NCBI RefSeq assembly: GCF_900215505.1
Contig: NZ_LT907844.1
Coordinates: 3,984,001-4,048,000 of the forward strand
Source: Cohaesibacter sp. ES.047
GTDB taxonomy: Bacteria > Pseudomonadota > Alphaproteobacteria > Rhizobiales > Cohaesibacteraceae
Length of the DNA stretch: 64,000 nucleotides
Direction of reading: 5' to 3'
The notes beneath the pieces are model-generated. The model ran no database searches, had not been told where the DNA came from, and was given only the letters and a program-made list of their open reading frames with translations. A program made the position numbers and the translations under genes. Below are positions 7,022-54,040 of the stretch, in pieces. How positions within the stretch are numbered: position 1 is the stretch's first letter; the number at the start of each line of letters is the position of its first letter.

Positions 7022-7157
7022 TGCCTTTCGTCCCTGATTAGCTACGGGGCATTATCGCGGCGCACCTTGCCAATTCAAGGTGGGCTTTGAACTGCCAAGG
7101 TCTGCCAAAGCGAAATTGGCAAACCTCGGCCTCTATCCAGCTGAACCGGAGACTATG

Positions 7158-43275: not shown

Positions 43276-43469
43276 GTAACGATCGCATCAACAAGGTTCA
43301 TGTGAGCCTGTTCAAACCGGGCTATTCATCGACACCGTTGGTCGGGGTTATCGCGCCCAACCAGTCTGAAAACTATTACCATCGCGGCCTGTCTCTCTCC
43401 GAGGCGATCGAGCTGCGCGATAAGTTGAGCTTGGCGATCAAGGAAATCAGGGAGGGGGCAAAACAATGA
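43272..43469 (+). CDS. Small phage protein, unknown
   Basis: A 65-residue protein (MSNDRINKVHVSLFKPGYSS) with GAGGAGGG before the ATG, overlapping both neighbours by ATGA. It has a beta-rich start and a helical end (LSEAIELRDKLSLAIKEIRE). There is no family match. The tight coupling to the primase gene suggests expression with the replication genes. Confidence 0.7.
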   Translation: MSNDRINKVHVSLFKPGYSSTPLVGVIAPNQSENYYHRGLSLSEAIELRDKLSLAIKEIREGAKQ

Positions 43470-44575
43470 CCCTGACTATCGACCGCAACGCTATCACCGC
43501 GCTCAAGAAACAGATCGTCCTTTCCGATGTAATCGGCAAGTCAGTCAAGTTGCATCAAGGTGGTACGTGGATGACCGGCCTCTGTCCGTTCCATGAGGAT
43601 CACAATCCGAGTTTTTCGGTCAGCGACGTCAGCGGGCGCTATATCTGTCACGCATGTGGTGCGCACGGCGACATATTTGATTGGGTGGCGCACACTGACC
43701 AACTGGATCCACAAGCGGATTTTCTCCAAGTCTTTCGCCGGGTGCAGGACATTGTGGGCGATCATTCGGTCGCGACGACATTGCCGCAACATGACACCGC
43801 CAAACGCGGCGAAAAGATCAAGGCCAACTCTGAAGAACGCCGACAAAAAGCCATTCGTAATTGGCGAAAAGGTCGACCAATCGAGGGGACCAAGGCCGAG
43901 ACCTATTTGCGCGACTGTCGCGGCATTCGCACGGTTGACTTTACTGGCATGCCATTCCGCTTCATCGACAATCATGAGCGCTGGATCTGGTGCGACCGGC
44001 TGAAAAAGCCGGTCATGGTTGGGCGCTGGCCTTGCCTGCTGACCGCCATTCAGGAGGTTGAACCAAACTCCGGGGGCAAGCATCGTTTTCTTGCTCTGCA
44101 CCGGACGTGGTTTGACCTCGATGAGCACCAAGGCAAACCAAAAATCATCTACACCGCGCCGGACGGAAAGGTCCGCGAGATCGCCCGCAAAAAGATCGAT
44201 GGCGACTATTTTGGCCGGGGCGCAATCATGCTGACGCAGCCAGACGAGACGCTGGCGGTCACCGAGGGGATCGAAAACGGCCTCACGGCGCTGGAGTTGG
44301 GGCCTTACAGGCATGTTTGGGTTGCGGTCTCTCTCAATGCCTTTGGCGCAATGCCGCTTTTGCCCGTTACCAAGCACATGATCATTATCAGCGACAGCGA
44401 CTCCAAAACCCCAAAAGCCGCCCTGATGCATCAAGAGAAGCTGTGCGACACCATGCATCGCCAGCGGCTCAAGCACAATGTCGATGTGGATATCAAGCCA
44501 GCACCGCCGGGCTATGACCTGAATGACTGGCACCTCAAGCAATTGCTGCACCATGCGCTCGCAACCGGTCAGTAG
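43466..44575 (+). CDS. Phage DNA primase (CHC2 zinc finger and Toprim)
   Basis: A 369-residue primase. The zinc finger is C40-x2-H43...C61-x2-C64 (GLCPFHEDHNPSFSV and YICHACGAHGDIFDW). The catalytic Toprim half has LAVTEGIENGLTALEL (invariant Glu, about 265) and HMIIISDSDS (Asp-x-Asp, about 310). It makes RNA primers for phage replication. Helicase functions sit in the separate gene at 47421, unlike phages with a fused primase-helicase. The candidate origin iterons lie after that helicase. Confidence 0.93.
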   Translation: MTLTIDRNAITALKKQIVLSDVIGKSVKLHQGGTWMTGLCPFHEDHNPSFSVSDVSGRYICHACGAHGDIFDWVAHTDQLDPQADFLQVFRRVQDIVGDHSVATTLPQHDTAKRGEKIKANSEERRQKAIRNWRKGRPIEGTKAETYLRDCRGIRTVDFTGMPFRFIDNHERWIWCDRLKKPVMVGRWPCLLTAIQEVEPNSGGKHRFLALHRTWFDLDEHQGKPKIIYTAPDGKVREIARKKIDGDYFGRGAIMLTQPDETLAVTEGIENGLTALELGPYRHVWVAVSLNAFGAMPLLPVTKHMIIISDSDSKTPKAALMHQEKLCDTMHRQRLKHNVDVDIKPAPPGYDLNDWHLKQLLHHALATGQ

Positions 44576-46206: not shown

Positions 46207-46556
46207 CCGAACATATTCAAGAAAAGTACCGCAAGGCACTGAAGGACACCAAGATTTATCTCAACGGGGCCGGTTACGGTGATCCGGACAGTTTCGAGAG
46301 GCTTATGAATATTCAGGACGTTTTGCTTTCGATGGGTGACCAGCTTATTCCACCTGCCACCCTGTGGCGTCCGACCCATGTTAATCTCAAATCAGGCGAA
46401 AAATACTGCGTGCTTCACGTTGGCCTCCTTGAGGCCGATTTGGAGCCGGTTGTGATCTATGAGAACCGGGATCGCCGCGTTTGGGTTCGCCCCGTGTCCG
46501 AGTTTCTCGACGGTTGCTTTGTTGTGTTGCAGCAAGACAATCTCGGAGGCGAGTGA
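46203..46556 (+). CDS. DUF1653-like phage protein
   Basis: A 117-residue protein. The second half, KSGEKYCVLHVGLLEADLEP followed by VVIYENRDRRVWVRPVSEFL, resembles the small DUF1653 beta domain, whose role is unknown. The N-terminal 55 residues are helical. It is coupled by ATGA to the previous gene and two bases from the next, in the chain of small genes before the helicase. Confidence 0.62.
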   Translation: MTEHIQEKYRKALKDTKIYLNGAGYGDPDSFERLMNIQDVLLSMGDQLIPPATLWRPTHVNLKSGEKYCVLHVGLLEADLEPVVIYENRDRRVWVRPVSEFLDGCFVVLQQDNLGGE

Positions 46557-46557
46557 C

Positions 46558-46935
46558 ATGACCGAGAGATTTACCAGCCCGGAACGCCCGCCAGAGGGCA
46601 TCGAGCGAGAGCTTTTGACTCCGCGCATTGAGGAGGCGATCCGCGAAAAACAGGCCAGCAAGCCCAAACATTCGCCCTTGCCGCAAGCGTGGGAGGAGGG
46701 GGCTAGTTTGACTAACACTCCAACCCTGCAATTCACATACACCAATTGGCGCGGCGTTACCTCGATAAGAAAGGTCGAGCCGATATTTATTTGGTGCGGC
46801 AGAACGGAATGGCATCCGGATCCGCAATGGTTTTTGAAGGCGTTCGACCTCGAAAAGAATGAGATGCGCGACTTCGCCCTCGCTGACATCAAGGCATTTG
46901 GCGAGAGGTCGCTGGATACCACTGGTGGCGACTGA
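46558..46935 (+). CDS. WYL-like domain phage protein
   Basis: A 125-residue protein. From about residue 55, LQFTYTNWRGVTSIRKVEPI and RTEWHPDPQWFLKAFDLEKN match the compact WYL-type domain seen in many alphaproteobacterial phages and regulators. The first 50 residues are Pro/Glu-rich and probably flexible. WYL domains bind ligands or nucleic acids; a lone copy may act as a modulator. TGATG couples it to the next gene. Confidence 0.65.
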   Translation: MTERFTSPERPPEGIERELLTPRIEEAIREKQASKPKHSPLPQAWEEGASLTNTPTLQFTYTNWRGVTSIRKVEPIFIWCGRTEWHPDPQWFLKAFDLEKNEMRDFALADIKAFGERSLDTTGGD

Positions 46936-47156
46936 TGCCACCAAGAAAGCCGCGCCGCCCAATTCCGACGACCGAACCGATCCGCTCAGCCTCAACAGAG
47001 GTTGCCTATAGAATTTGCGAATTTGCCAACGGTCGCCGGAATTGCACTTGCAAGAACCACCATCTGCGCACGCCATGCGAGTCGCTCAAATCCATCGCCA
47101 AGGAATGCGTTGCGATCGCCAGAGTAGAATTAAAAAGGAAATCGACCGATGAGTAA
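46935..47156 (+). CDS. Small basic phage protein, unknown
   Basis: A 73-residue Lys/Arg-rich protein with Cys spacing C-x11-C-x-C-x8-C (VAYRICEF, CTCKNHH and TPCESL), possibly a small metal site. It starts by overlapping the WYL gene stop and overlaps the next gene by eight bases. No family was recognised. Confidence 0.6.
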   Translation: MPPRKPRRPIPTTEPIRSASTEVAYRICEFANGRRNCTCKNHHLRTPCESLKSIAKECVAIARVELKRKSTDE

Positions 47157-47424
47157 GAAAAAGCGGATTGCAAAAGCCATTGAAATCGCCGTGCGATGGG
47201 GAGGCATAGATGGCGCTCATCACAAGGCGTGGGCTATTGACCAAATGGTGCGCGCCCTAACCGGCTGTCCAGATGTTACTGGAAAAGCAATAGATTGTAA
47301 GGGCAGGCCTTACACCTACACCGCACAAGGCGAAAGTAAGGAATATCAAAAGCTCGTAAAGAAAGCCTGTAAAGGAGAAGACGGGCCAGAAACATACTCT
47401 TGGGACACAGGTATCGCTCCATGA
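47149..47424 (+). CDS. Small phage protein, unknown
   Basis: A 91-residue protein (MSKKKRIAKAIEIAVRWGGI) with a helical start and a Lys-rich acidic end. HHKAWAIDQMVRALTGCPDV is the most distinctive stretch and resembles conserved hypothetical proteins of other phages, but no function is known. It overlaps the helicase gene by ATGA. Confidence 0.65.
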   Translation: MSKKKRIAKAIEIAVRWGGIDGAHHKAWAIDQMVRALTGCPDVTGKAIDCKGRPYTYTAQGESKEYQKLVKKACKGEDGPETYSWDTGIAP

Positions 47425-49199
47425 CCGACACCGGAACCATCGCCCACACCGCGCGGACGCATAATGCGCCCAATCCGCTGGACGCGCCGCCGATCGCCAG
47501 CACGGGACACACGACCGAGGATTTCAAGGCCGAGCTGGACGCGCAATGCCCCTTCACGGCACTTGGCTTTTCTGGTCAGAATTACCACCTTCTCAACGCC
47601 GCCGGTGAACTGGTTAGCCTGTCGCCAACACAATTGGAGAAACAATCGACACAAGCCGCTTTGGTGCATGGAGATATTTCTTGGTTTAGGGACCGGTTCC
47701 CGCCGCGCGATCACCGACAGGATTTTGACCGGCTGGAAGCGCTCAACTGGATCATGATGGAATGCAGCATCAAGGGGTATTTTGACCCCGCACAGCACAA
47801 GCTCAGAAAGACCGGCATTTGGCGAGTCGGCACCGGCGAGGATTCGCGTCTGCTGGCTCACCTAGGAAGTCACATCTATTTTGACGGGCGCGAGCTGGAT
47901 CCGGGGTTTCAGAAAGAAGGGGCATTCTATCTCATTTCCAACGCCATCCCGCGCATGAGCAAGCCTGCCGATGCCGCCAGCGTTGCGGATTGCGAGGAAA
48001 TCCTCGACGTGGTCAAGACCTGGACATTCAAGGACGGCCCGCGCGGGCCTAACCTCTGGCTCGGCTGGATGATGGCCGCACAATATGGCGGCGCGCCGGA
48101 GTGGCGCGTCCACATGATGGCAGGGGCGGAAAACGGGGCGGGTAAATCGACCTTGGCTCAGCTGCTTGAAGGGCTTCTCGGCGGGCTTGCACAATTCGTC
48201 AACGAAGCAACAGAGGCCGGGATCAGGCAAAGTGCTGCCGGTCGGTCGGGCGCAATCATCTATGACGAGGTGGAAGGCAAGGAGGAGGGCGGGTCTGTCG
48301 CCCGCATTGTCGAATTGATCCGGCGCATGTCGGGCGGCGCTGGCGCGGTCACCTTGCGCGGCTCGGCTGGCGGTAAGTCAAGCACATTCGTTGTGCTTGG
48401 CGTCGCCTACCTCACGGCCATCCTGCCCCCCATGCTTGAACCGCAGGATAGATCGCGCTTTGTAGAGATCCACCTCGGTCCGCTCGTCAAAGGGAGTGAG
48501 GGAATGGCCAATGAGGAAAAGGTCAACCGCATGCTGGCCCGCACTGATGAGCTGTCGCCGCGCTTGAGGCGGCGAGCCTTTGACAATTGGGAACGGTTCA
48601 ACCATTCCATCGCCGCTTACCGTGCATCCTTTGCCAAGATGGGCATCCGTGCCCGCGACGCCTTGCGCTTCTCGACGGTCCTTGCGGGCCGGGACATCGC
48701 CCTGCATGACGACATGCTCGATGGCGACTATTATGACACCGAGGCGGCGCTCTACAAACCGCTGATTGATCAAACCTTGTCAGACGGCAACGATGGCGAG
48801 GGCATCCAGTGTCTCAACCAGATTCTGATGATGCCGCTATCGATGCTGCGCATCAACAATACGCTGACAATTGGCGAAATGATCGGGCAGGCTTTGGCGG
48901 GTAACGACCTAAACGAAAAGGCACTAGCCCGGATGGGGTTGAGGATCACGCCTGAGTTCAAGGCCAAAGAAGGGGAGCCGCCGGGGCTATTGGTCGCGAA
49001 CACTCACCCAAGGTTAGAGGAAATTTTTTCAGGTACCAAATGGGCAAAAAAGCAGTGGCAACAGGCGTTGCGTTACATCGATGGAGCGCACGCACTTGGC
49101 AAGGTCAAGAAATTTGCTGGCACACCAGCAAAGAGCACCTTCATTCCGCTTGAATTTTTGCCAGAACCGCAGAAAACGGACGATCCGGGCATTCCATAG
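47421..49199 (+). CDS. Phage replicative ATPase/helicase (P4 alpha/D5-like)
   Basis: A 592-residue protein. Walker A AGAENGAGKST lies near residue 240, Walker B-like AIIYDEVE near 282, and a candidate arginine finger in QDRSRFVEIHL near 350. This layout fits the D5/SF3-type viral helicases and P4 alpha. The N-terminal 200 residues lack primase motifs, which are in the separate gene at 43466. The C-terminal 130 residues could bind the origin. Twelve iterons begin within two bases of its stop codon, as expected if the protein recognises them. Confidence 0.8.
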   Translation: MTDTGTIAHTARTHNAPNPLDAPPIASTGHTTEDFKAELDAQCPFTALGFSGQNYHLLNAAGELVSLSPTQLEKQSTQAALVHGDISWFRDRFPPRDHRQDFDRLEALNWIMMECSIKGYFDPAQHKLRKTGIWRVGTGEDSRLLAHLGSHIYFDGRELDPGFQKEGAFYLISNAIPRMSKPADAASVADCEEILDVVKTWTFKDGPRGPNLWLGWMMAAQYGGAPEWRVHMMAGAENGAGKSTLAQLLEGLLGGLAQFVNEATEAGIRQSAAGRSGAIIYDEVEGKEEGGSVARIVELIRRMSGGAGAVTLRGSAGGKSSTFVVLGVAYLTAILPPMLEPQDRSRFVEIHLGPLVKGSEGMANEEKVNRMLARTDELSPRLRRRAFDNWERFNHSIAAYRASFAKMGIRARDALRFSTVLAGRDIALHDDMLDGDYYDTEAALYKPLIDQTLSDGNDGEGIQCLNQILMMPLSMLRINNTLTIGEMIGQALAGNDLNEKALARMGLRITPEFKAKEGEPPGLLVANTHPRLEEIFSGTKWAKKQWQQALRYIDGAHALGKVKKFAGTPAKSTFIPLEFLPEPQKTDDPGIP

Positions 49200-49200
49200 G

Positions 49201-49438
49201 GGTAACGCCGTTACCTCGCCGTTACCCCTCACCGTTACCTCTAGTGCATTGATACTATTTGCAAATCTGCAAAGGTAACGGGGGTAACGCCACAAATGCA
49301 CACCCTTAATGTGTGCGCGCCTGTCTATCAAACATACCGTTACCCCGTTACCTTCGTTACCCCTGATTGATTAGTTTAGTTGCATCAAAGAGATAAGGGG
49401 TAACGGTCGGGGGTAACGCTTCAAAAACCTCCGTTACC
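49201..49438. repeat. Iteron array of twelve GGTAACG/CGTTACC sites, candidate replication origin
   Basis: In 238 non-coding bases the heptamer occurs 12 times. Direct copies start at 49201, 49274, 49283, 49399 and 49412; inverted copies start at 49209, 49220, 49233, 49338, 49346, 49355 and 49432. Most extend to GGGGTAACG or its complement. They form four clusters separated by AT-richer DNA (about 49241-49273, 49290-49337 and 49362-49398). Irregular spacing and mixed orientation exclude CRISPR. The place, between helicase and the next gene, fits an origin or a multi-site operator. Confidence 0.8.
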
Positions 49439-49467: not shown

Positions 49468-50127
49468 ATGACCAGACCAATAGCGATCGACAAACTGATT
49501 GAATGGGCGTACGCCATCGAAATGGCCCATATGGCAGAGGTGACCGGCGCTCATTGGTCCACACCGAGTGGGTGCGGTAGCAACTGGAACGCCTTTGCCA
49601 ATCTTGCCGCCCTTGGCTGCATGGTCTCATCGGGCGGTGGCACCCCTGACAACCAGATGCTTGGCTGGGAGGTTCATCCAGACGCCGCCGCCGTTCATGC
49701 CGAGGTTCTGGATTTGCCGGACCGCCGAGCCATCGAGCTGGTTATGATGCACGGGATTTTACGCAATCATCCCGACCCGCTGGCCGACGAGTATGTCTAC
49801 ATCGATCCACGCGCCGCCAAGGGGAAAATCAGGATCAAGATGGTTTATGCTAATCCAGTGCGATCCGCCGACCCGATTGCCTGTGTCATCCCGTGGCTTG
49901 GCGGCGACTTCGACCTGATCACCGAGGCCCGTGTGGATTTTGCGCTGTGGCGCACCTCAATTGACCTTGTCTATGAGCGATTAGCTAAAACGGACGTACT
50001 GAACACCTACCAACCAACCCCCTGCACACTGCCCGCCGAACCATGGAATGGAATCGATAGAACCGGAACCAACAACCCGGACATGTGGCTGGTCGCAGAA
50101 AACCGCCATTCTTCCGTCAGCTATTGA
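49468..50127 (+). CDS. Phage protein, unknown
   Basis: A 219-residue protein (MTRPIAIDKLIEWAYAIEMA) with AAAGGG before the ATG. It contains a Gly-rich GCMVSSGGGTPDN, an RRAIELVMMHGILRNHPDPL helix and Trp-rich strands. It is the last gene before the terminator at 50184, so it belongs to the replication operon. Similar hypothetical proteins are found in alphaproteobacterial phages, but no function was recognised. Confidence 0.7.
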   Translation: MTRPIAIDKLIEWAYAIEMAHMAEVTGAHWSTPSGCGSNWNAFANLAALGCMVSSGGGTPDNQMLGWEVHPDAAAVHAEVLDLPDRRAIELVMMHGILRNHPDPLADEYVYIDPRAAKGKIRIKMVYANPVRSADPIACVIPWLGGDFDLITEARVDFALWRTSIDLVYERLAKTDVLNTYQPTPCTLPAEPWNGIDRTGTNNPDMWLVAENRHSSVSY

Positions 50128-51333: not shown

Positions 51334-52095
51334 ATGGCCGACATTGTTTCCAAATCAGAATTTGCAAAGCGGATTGGCGTTAGTGCCGCTCGCGTTTCCC
51401 AGATGTTGAATGAGGGAAAGATTTCCGGCGAAGCTGTGCATGGTGAGGGACGCCGCGCCAAGATCGATGTTGAGGTTGCCTGCAAGCAGATAGGCATCCG
51501 GCGCGACATCGGCCAAAGCCTTGGCAATGGGGCAACCACAAACCTAAACCCGAATTTAGGTCCGAACGATAGTGGTGGCATTGCCCAGTCAGTGAATCCT
51601 GACCACACCAGTCCGCGTCTGCAAAGGGAGCCATCCGAGGATGAAATCCTCAATCGCCGCCTGCGAGAATTCAAACTGCGCGATGCCGAGCGCAAGGATC
51701 GGCAGGCGCAGGAGGAGGAGTTGCTGAGGGTCGGGCGGCTCATGAAAACCGATGACGCTGTGCTGGAGATGGAGCGAATTGTCGGGGTGATTACAGACAT
51801 TTTGACGGGTCACCCTGATCGCCTTGGTGATGAGCTGGCAGCGCAATTTGAGATCGGTGACAAGCGGTCGCTGGTGTTCTTCCTGCGTAATGCCTATCGG
51901 GATCTACGGATTCACATCAGTGACGAGTTGACCCGGCTGGCGGAAATAGAGCCGGATCTGGTTGCAGCTGATCTGTTGAGTGGCGGGGCTGAAGGTGATG
52001 TTGCAGTGGGCCAACCCGGCGAAACGTCTAAAGCTGACATCGGCGAGCAAGATCAAGCCAGCACCGAAAATCGACCACAACCAGTGGGCGCGTGA
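51334..52095 (+). CDS. Terminase small subunit, Nu1-like
   Basis: A 253-residue protein. The N-terminal winged helix-turn-helix (SKSEFAKRIGVSAARVSQML, then NEGKISGEAV and AKIDVEVACKQIG) is the Nu1-type DNA-recognition domain. A linker and long charged helices (LNRRLREFKLRDAERKDRQA) form the central oligomerisation part, and the C-terminal 100 residues should contact the large subunit. It binds the packaging site, presumably in the region just upstream. Its end overlaps the large-subunit gene by 98 bases. Confidence 0.82.
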   Translation: MADIVSKSEFAKRIGVSAARVSQMLNEGKISGEAVHGEGRRAKIDVEVACKQIGIRRDIGQSLGNGATTNLNPNLGPNDSGGIAQSVNPDHTSPRLQREPSEDEILNRRLREFKLRDAERKDRQAQEEELLRVGRLMKTDDAVLEMERIVGVITDILTGHPDRLGDELAAQFEIGDKRSLVFFLRNAYRDLRIHISDELTRLAEIEPDLVAADLLSGGAEGDVAVGQPGETSKADIGEQDQASTENRPQPVGA

Positions 52096-54040
52096 GAATA
52101 TCGTCTTTGGTCCGGATGAGCCTTTCCCAGGCCCGTACAATGATGAAAAGTTTCCATACTTTCCGCCCATTCTGGATGCGCTGTCGGATGACGATCCTTG
52201 CCAGATCGTAACGATCATGAAGTCGGCTCAGCTCGGCGGGACGATCATCATCGTGATTTTTGTTGCGGTCTCGATGATCACCGGGCCGATTCATTTCATG
52301 TATGTACAGGCGACGGAAAGTGCCGCCAAGAAATGGCTCTCGGAAAAGATGGGGCCTCTGCTGAAAGGTGTTCCAGCCCTGCGCCGGTTGTTTCTAGATA
52401 ACAGTTCAAAGGCCAAGAATACCGATCAGGAGAAGGCGACCGAGGACGGGCGCGGCAAGATTGAGGCGGTCAGCGCGCAATCAAAGGATGACCTGGCGCA
52501 AGTGTCGCGACCAAAGCAGGCGCAGGATGACCTGTCGAAGTGGGAAGAAAACGCCGCCGGTGATCCGGAGGAACAGGCCGACGACCGATCGCGTGCCTAT
52601 GAATTTCGCAAGATCCTGAAGGTCTCAACGCCACTTTTGTGGCCGGGCTGCAAGATCACCAAGAATTACCGGGACGGGTCACAAGAGGAATGGGAAGTTC
52701 CTTGCCCGCACTGTGGTGACTATCAGGCGCTCGAATGGGAGAATTTCAAGGCCAATATCGACGAGGACAATCCGGATAATTCGCATTTTACCTGCATTCA
52801 TTGCGGTTGCGAGATCCATGATTATCATCGCCCGCAGGTCATGCCAAAGGGGCGGTTTGTTGCGCGCAACCCAAAGGCAATGACCATTCACCGTAGTTTC
52901 TATCTCTGGACGGCACATTCGCCCTTGCAAAGTTTCGGCTCGATTGCCCGCAAGTGGATCCGGGTGCGTGGTATTCCAACCGCCGAACAGGTGTTTATGA
53001 ATAACGACGTCGGCGTCGCCTATGAGGTGGCCGGGATTGGTGCAAAGGTTGAGGATCTCAAACTGCGGTCGGAAAATTCCGACTACGATCTCGGCGCGGT
53101 GCCTGCCGGATTTTATGAGCTCTTCTATGGTATCGACTGTCAGGACAATCGCGTCGAGTGGACGCTGGTTGCTTATGGCAGGAATGTCCGCCGGGCGGTG
53201 ATCCAGAAAGGCATTATTCCGCATCATATCTCAGAGGATGAGGCCAAGGCGGCACTTGACGATCTGGTCAAACGGCGCTGGCGCAATTTTGCTGGTCATT
53301 ATCTTGAGGTCAAATGCACCGCGATCGACGCAAACGCTTTTCGCGATGATGTAGGGGATTGGGCGACGCGTTACGGCAAAGCCAAAGTGATCATGGTGCG
53401 CGGTCATCAAAGTGAAAATGTTCCACCGCTTATGGAGGTGAAGTGGGAGACCAGCAAGCGCGGCAAGCGTAAAGTCAACCGATATCGCGGGCAGTTCTTT
53501 CACTTCAATGCCGGGTCTTTCAAATGGGCTCTTTACCGATCTCTGACCAAAATCGACGACCCGGCCAGCCGTTCCTACGTCGCCTTTCCGCGCGGGCTGG
53601 ATGATGATTATTTCGATCAGGTTGCAGCAGAGAAGCGAGTCCGAAAAGTCACTAAGACCGGTTTTGTCAAATATGTCTGGGAGAAAGATCCTAATCAGGC
53701 AAACGAGGCGCTGGATATGCTCAATCAGGCCGAGGTCGCCGCGCGGCGGTCTGGGGTGTTTGATGTATCCGATGAGTATTGGGACATGCTGGAGGCCAAG
53801 CTTGGCCAGCCTGACCCGGATGCTCAGATGGATATTGAGGACATGATGACAAGGCATGGCAGCGAAACGGCTGTCATTGCAGATACAGCTGACAAACTGC
53901 ATGCCGCCTTAACGGATCTGCAGAAACAGACCGGGCCGATCGACGATAACAAGCCGCCCGATCCAGACAAAGTGGAAAGCCCGACCTTACGCGCAATACG
54001 CGAGAGGCGAGAAGCGCGCAAAAAGAACAAGGGGCCATAG
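51998..54040 (+). CDS. Terminase large subunit, GpA family
   Basis: A 680-residue lambda gpA-type packaging motor. The family start WARENIVFGPDEPFPGPYND and the ATPase segment TIMKSAQLGGTI (about 72-83, deviant Walker A) are clear. A four-Cys zinc ribbon (CPHCGDY and CIHCGC) is near 230-262. The nuclease half includes YGIDCQDNRVEWTLVAYG and EVKCTAIDAN. It cuts concatemers at cos and pumps DNA into the prohead. ATG 51998 is the only in-frame ATG before the conserved part; GTG 51980 is possible. Confidence 0.95.
   Translation: MLQWANPAKRLKLTSASKIKPAPKIDHNQWARENIVFGPDEPFPGPYNDEKFPYFPPILDALSDDDPCQIVTIMKSAQLGGTIIIVIFVAVSMITGPIHFMYVQATESAAKKWLSEKMGPLLKGVPALRRLFLDNSSKAKNTDQEKATEDGRGKIEAVSAQSKDDLAQVSRPKQAQDDLSKWEENAAGDPEEQADDRSRAYEFRKILKVSTPLLWPGCKITKNYRDGSQEEWEVPCPHCGDYQALEWENFKANIDEDNPDNSHFTCIHCGCEIHDYHRPQVMPKGRFVARNPKAMTIHRSFYLWTAHSPLQSFGSIARKWIRVRGIPTAEQVFMNNDVGVAYEVAGIGAKVEDLKLRSENSDYDLGAVPAGFYELFYGIDCQDNRVEWTLVAYGRNVRRAVIQKGIIPHHISEDEAKAALDDLVKRRWRNFAGHYLEVKCTAIDANAFRDDVGDWATRYGKAKVIMVRGHQSENVPPLMEVKWETSKRGKRKVNRYRGQFFHFNAGSFKWALYRSLTKIDDPASRSYVAFPRGLDDDYFDQVAAEKRVRKVTKTGFVKYVWEKDPNQANEALDMLNQAEVAARRSGVFDVSDEYWDMLEAKLGQPDPDAQMDIEDMMTRHGSETAVIADTADKLHAALTDLQKQTGPIDDNKPPDPDKVESPTLRAIRERREARKKNKGP

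Follow-up and report, generated by a model that had tools for sequence, protein, structure and literature searches.

A heptamer array directly downstream of a prophage helicase gene in Cohaesibacter sp. ES.047: a proposed replication origin with counterparts in phages and small plasmids

The stretch of DNA analyzed here (the window) comprises 64,000 nucleotides of Cohaesibacter sp. ES.047 (contig NZ_LT907844.1, positions 3,984,001 to 4,048,000), the genome of which is a single contig of 5.11 Mb. The neighbourhood of interest is a prophage, in which genes for a repressor-like protein, a CHC2 primase, and a helicase are followed by terminase, portal, head protease, and major head genes. The helicase gene (47421..49199, plus strand) encodes a protein of 592 amino acids that is the proposed initiator, and it is followed at 49201..49438 by an array of twelve GGTAACG/CGTTACC sites on both strands, the proposed replication origin. 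The twelve copies in mixed orientation that a sequence-only reading had counted were all recovered as exact matches, and its placing of the array two bases past the helicase stop was correct, as the stop codon ends at 49199 and the first copy begins at 49201, with 1 bp between them. The same reading held that most copies extend to nine bases; this applies in part only, and with its flanks the motif reads nnnnCGTTACCnCnn under a 75% rule. Throughout the window, the heptamer occurred 21 times against 2.46 expected (standard deviation 1.48; maximum 6 in 100 shuffles), including an extra copy at 48900 within the helicase gene.

The array consists of six plus six sites about a dyad axis at 49318.0, a symmetry that the sequence-only reading had not noted, and five mirror pairs cover 10 of the 12 sites. 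Four clusters were distinguished. Cluster A (49201..49239) holds sites at 49201(+), 49209(-), 49220(-), and 49233(-), and the spacer between A and B (49244..49273) has a GC content of 0.33. Cluster B (49274..49289, plus strand) has two sites, 49274 and 49283, at a 9 bp step, and cluster C (49338..49361, minus strand) has three, 49338, 49346, and 49355, at steps of 8 and 9 bp. The gap between B and C contains a central inverted repeat, GCACAC-7-GTGTGC (49298..49316), which is weak taken alone (z -1.56; 14 of 200 shuffles fold equally well) and falls in an alternating purine-pyrimidine centre, a family-wide trait. An AT-rich spacer with a GC content of 0.35 (49362..49398), a candidate unwinding element, leads to cluster D (49399..49438), with sites at 49399(+), 49412(+), and 49432(-).

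The helicase matched the PHROG 21086 profile over residues 31-583 of 592 (E 1.9e-99) and PHROG 35358, labelled "DNA primase" (E 2e-46). No Pfam family was matched at E 0.1, including the D5_N / DUF5906 helicase domain of the P4 alpha type. Its structure model (predicted local distance difference test score, pLDDT, 87.7) matched the folds of the D5/E5, NrS-1, MCM, SaPI5 (Staphylococcus aureus pathogenicity island) Rep, and SCCmec (staphylococcal cassette chromosome mec) Cch helicases, the last of which (5dgk) was the top match over the whole length. The shared fold, with a Walker A site, places the protein among the AAA+ replicative helicases of the D5/Cch/MCM fold. The C-terminal domain, approximately residues 456-592, is proposed to read the heptamer. 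As the sequence-only reading had stated, the primase has a gene of its own (43466..44575, plus strand; CHC2 zinc finger, DUF7146, and a weak Toprim_3 match), apart from that of the helicase; primase-helicase fusions exist among the relatives, for example at locus L062.

Relatives of the helicase turned up in 22 of 298 genomes, in 23 phage records (10 used), in 14 plasmid records (11 used, with three from Phaeobacter left out), and in IMG/VR loci, of which the best 80 of 160 were taken. With redundancy removed at 85% protein identity, the test set comprised 100 loci, in each of which the 7-mer most densely clustered in 300 bp was sought, both strands being counted. In 87 of the 100 loci this 7-mer had at least six copies, and the cluster exceeded all ten of the locus's own dinucleotide shuffles at 88. 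Visual inspection led to the removal of six of the 87 clusters that looked like GC-rich or coding-type repeats (L036, L063, L096, L108, L114, and L146; three of these loci have a weaker cluster of 5-6 copies near the helicase), leaving 81 arrays. The best cluster elsewhere in the same 81 loci had 3-5 copies in 74, six in six, and seven in one. The array starts within 3 kb past the helicase stop in 74 of 81 loci (within 500 bp in 44 and at 500-3000 bp in 30), farther away in six, and upstream of the gene in one, that of Acinetobacter phage Acjo_20 (L061).

These results bear out the expected enrichment beside homologous helicases insofar as a dense heptamer array lies near most homologues; GGTAACG itself is not conserved family-wide, whereas the layout is. 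The 81 arrays have 54 different top 7-mers, or 28 classes when 7-mers with a common 6-mer are joined. Compared with L038, where the helicase is 80% identical, the window keeps the places and orientations of the sites nearly throughout while GGTAACG becomes GGTTACA. The genome of the window has a second family helicase, about 110 kb off (L041, G000:C1:4142620-4144155), with a GGGACAC array, which suggests two related replicons with different words on one chromosome; a counter-example is provided by L039 and L042, two helicase loci of genome G009 with the same word, GGGACAC.

Across the 81 arrays, neighbouring sites in the same orientation are 8-9 or 11-12 bp apart, and the commonest site count is 12, found in 33 arrays when one mismatch at most is allowed. 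The fraction of dyad-paired sites was 0.69, compared with 0.46 when gaps and 0.51 when orientations were permuted; tested locus by locus, p 0.1 was reached in only 45 (gaps) and 30 (orientations) of the 81. The layout was derived from 77 loci, with the axis at the largest gap and four arrays of fewer than nine sites left out, and reads A(-) B(+) | C(-) D(+) with mirror symmetry, B and C being opposite in 73. The centre alternates between purine and pyrimidine in 0.77-0.78 of steps, compared with about 0.5, and GC content dips to 0.36-0.38 between clusters C and D. Six sites lie to the left of the axis in 37 of the 77 loci, to the right in 43, and on both sides in 26, against a background of 0.58 hits per 300 bp. 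Among loci found after the layout was set, a 6+6 array is present in two of three with 20 kb of context (L284 and L285), and one of four with short flanks (L272) has nine copies.

The family helicase is also carried by Arsenophonus nasoniae plasmids of 7.9-11.6 kb, most of which are labelled linear and most of which have a protelomerase gene, and it is the only evident replication gene in the plasmid gene tables examined. Seven records yielded four distinct arrays (GGTAACA, ATTACAA, CTAACAA, and GGTTGTA), typically of four sites, two | two, and four, and strains aPv and aNv_CAN each have two plasmids whose words differ. An Atlantibacter plasmid has eleven GGTAAYA sites. Such natural small plasmids with helicase and array bear indirectly on autonomous replication. 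The Arsenophonus helicases are 0.71-0.89 identical to each other; between L155 and L156 identity is 0.68 in the last quarter and 0.89 in the remainder, a concentration of differences that other pairs lack.

Very probably, then, the array is the replication origin of the prophage and is read by the helicase of the preceding gene; both binding and replication are predictions. This reading draws on features computed directly, namely the array, its layout, its recurrence next to helicases of this family, its occurrence on plasmids, and the helicase fold, and an origin bound by the helicase is supported, at the level of sequence and structure model, by its fit with synteny, plasmids, fold, and symmetry. 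The protein, which belongs to the D5/Cch/SaPI-Rep kind of AAA+ replicative helicase, would bind one heptamer per subunit through its C-terminal domain. The twelve sites are split six and six between halves of inverted orientation, which would allow a pair of hexamers to assemble face to face, on either side of the alternating purine-pyrimidine centre; that each subunit takes one site is an attractive inference. The hexamers would next unwind the AT-rich tract separating cluster C from cluster D, the presumed melting site, and start replication, with primers made by the separate CHC2 primase. Over evolution, heptamer and reader would change together under constant geometry, and each lineage would therefore have an origin word of its own.

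It is unlikely that the array is an origin whose heptamers are read by another initiator, such as a host DnaA-like or small phage protein, with the helicase loaded later. A small gene does directly precede that of the helicase in the window (47149..47424, plus strand; PHROG 23179, unknown) and in the Arsenophonus plasmids. However, the small protein is 0.94 identical in L150 and L151 despite their different heptamers, and the SaPI Rep and Cch2 helicases are themselves reported to bind (PMC7581432).

An operator or partition array for another DNA-binding protein (a repressor, a helix-turn-helix (HTH) protein, or a ParB-like protein), rather than an origin, is comparably improbable. Short-site arrays also serve partition and repression, and repressor and HTH genes occur in prophages. 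Nevertheless, array and helicase gene go together in phages and plasmids alike, the HTH regulator, the only one annotated in L151 and L156, is 0.99 identical between these plasmids although the heptamers differ, and the Rpn proteins, 0.92 identical there, are 0.87-0.93 identical across Arsenophonus plasmids with different words. A role as a packaging (pac/cos-like) site for the small terminase, which is encoded about 2 kb downstream, would suit the position of the window array between helicase and terminase genes and of the L216 and L232 arrays upstream of a terminase large-subunit gene, but it is very improbable, given that the small terminase subunit (TerS) is 0.93-0.96 identical in L150, L155, and L156 with three different heptamers, that L151, L158, L159, and L160 keep the array with no TerS match at E 1, and that the Acjo_20 array lies upstream of the helicase gene. 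Among the plasmid proteins, TerS and the HTH regulator can thus be set aside as likely readers of the heptamer, because they are near-identical across plasmid pairs with differing heptamers.

Viral contigs were also scanned blindly for three heptamers of the window at cluster spacing, which gave 79 pieces. Sixteen had at least eight copies within 300 bp, and four of these were one-way tandem repeats of GGTAACG, mostly at 9-bp steps (L179:6562, L197:4675, L224:3524, and L229:7555). The family helicase was on the same piece in five of the other twelve, about 4 kb away in two of them. Three arrays directly follow another D5-type primase-helicase, with Prim-Pol and D5_N domains at L194:9210, DUF5906 at L210:745, and Toprim and DUF5906 at L228:1791, which suggests that the array design is wider than the PHROG 21086-type helicase family. 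Two further arrays lie inside an AAA_25 gene (L169 and L217; the family helicase was searched for in L217 only).

Several observations weigh against a helicase-read origin. The family helicase was on only 6 of the 79 blind-scan pieces, and no helicase accompanies two 14-copy GGTAACG arrays of different layout on their pieces, one at L216:711, upstream of a terminase large-subunit gene, and one at L240:257, beside a gene of no assigned identity. No six-copy cluster was found in 13 of the 100 loci, besides the six clusters removed by eye. Among the later loci, L286 (20 kb of context) and the short-flank L269 and L279 had no array, and L273 had only five copies; no comparable array was present on plasmids with helicase relatives from Leisingera, Azospirillum, and, in one case, Phaeobacter. 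The GC-skew switch that had been expected at the array was not seen across loci, skew being higher past the array in 31 of 72, and so gives no support. Covariation between heptamer and C-terminal domain was weak and partly unspecific, and heptamers oriented by the layout aligned barely above random flips (3.47 compared with 3.30 bits, largest 3.35).

The sequence-only reading had considered the array a possibly undescribed origin system. The kind of array is not wholly undescribed because SaPIs and other phage-inducible chromosomal islands (PICIs), SCCmec Cch2, and the crr of P4 are precedents; what is new is that phages and plasmids carry it, that its plan is a 6+6 dyad, and that the word drifts within an unchanging geometry. 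In SaPI/PICI elements, the origin lies immediately 3' of the gene for the initiator helicase, with an AT-rich region between two sets of short iterons (PMC6092414), and PMC7581432 describes SaPI origins directly downstream of rep, with iterons read by the C-terminal domain, apparently as two hexamers. The window resembles these systems in the distance of the array from the helicase stop, in the AT-rich spacer between iteron sets, and in the match of its helicase fold to SaPI5 Rep. Unlike PICI satellites, however, the window prophage has genes for terminase large subunit, portal, head protease, and major head protein; the carriers here are full phages and linear plasmids, the primase is a separate CHC2 gene, and the four clusters, 6+6 dyad layout, and alternating purine-pyrimidine centre set the array apart. 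Cch2 is reported to bind, through its C-terminal domain, iterons (AAGTG) that closely follow its gene, and it formed hexamers and dodecamers on native gels (PMC7581432); three direct 5-nucleotide iterons are reported there, compared with about twelve 7-bp sites in both orientations here, and the partner primase differs from that of the window. PMC7145576 describes an initiator of a different type.

In P4, the crr, with short mixed-orientation repeats of the TGTTCACC / GGTGAACA type, is likewise annotated just downstream of alpha. In contrast to the window, alpha combines primase and helicase in one gene, the crr is built from a 120-bp repeat present twice, each copy holding five octamers, rather than 6+6, and a second origin region lies elsewhere. 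Among phages with a helicase of the same family (PHROG 21086/35358), Bdellovibrio phage phi1422 has eleven GGTAACA copies right after the gene and Synechococcus phage MinM1 has a CTCACAC array; their helicases are annotated as hypothetical or primase, and no origin is annotated in the stretches examined. No title or abstract on this array family in phages was found, which is weak evidence of absence, as subscription literature was thinly covered.

The C-terminal domain of the helicase is also found without the ATPase. Among 397 genomes of the order, 34 had a match to its profile, in several cases within a frame of 181-350 amino acids. In the genome of the window, 8 kb beyond the end of the window, a protein of 288 amino acids (G000:C1:4055996-4056859; L029:862-1728) joins a Bro-N domain (PF02498, E 5e-16) to a stretch sharing 30% identity with the C-terminus of the helicase (E 1e-11). 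The surroundings of this gene yielded no heptamer array. A second Bro-N fusion, in another family (L278:1483-2349), aligned over 110 columns (hhalign E 7e-13). Both fusions are antirepressor-type proteins and may be regulators that recognize origin-like sites.

The other features of the neighbourhood comprise a WYL-domain protein, possibly regulatory, between primase and helicase (46459-46935), the first gene past the array (49468..50127, plus strand; PHROG 9306, unknown), and the genes for the small (51334-52095; PHROG 57) and large (51980-54040; PHROG 15) terminase subunits, both on the plus strand. The sole tRNA of the window is a tRNA-Arg (tcg) on the minus strand at 7069-7148.

Tentatively, and with rather less confidence than in the origin itself, the arrays may represent an origin class with a fixed 6+6 dyad geometry and a freely drifting 7-letter word, read by a portable C-terminal helicase module with one site for each subunit of two hexamers. 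Concerted change of word and reader would give phages and plasmids replicon identities of their own, and through Bro-N proteins that borrowed the module, a regulator could read an origin and couple replication to the switch between lysis and lysogeny. The origin reading provides a likely function for PHROG 21086, listed as of "unknown function", and a computational route to the origins of many phages with such helicases. Furthermore, natural helicase-heptamer pairs of constant geometry make origin recognition by a hexameric helicase directly testable, and they bear on whether twelve sites correspond to two hexamers and on how origin specificity drifts, letting related elements coexist in one cell.
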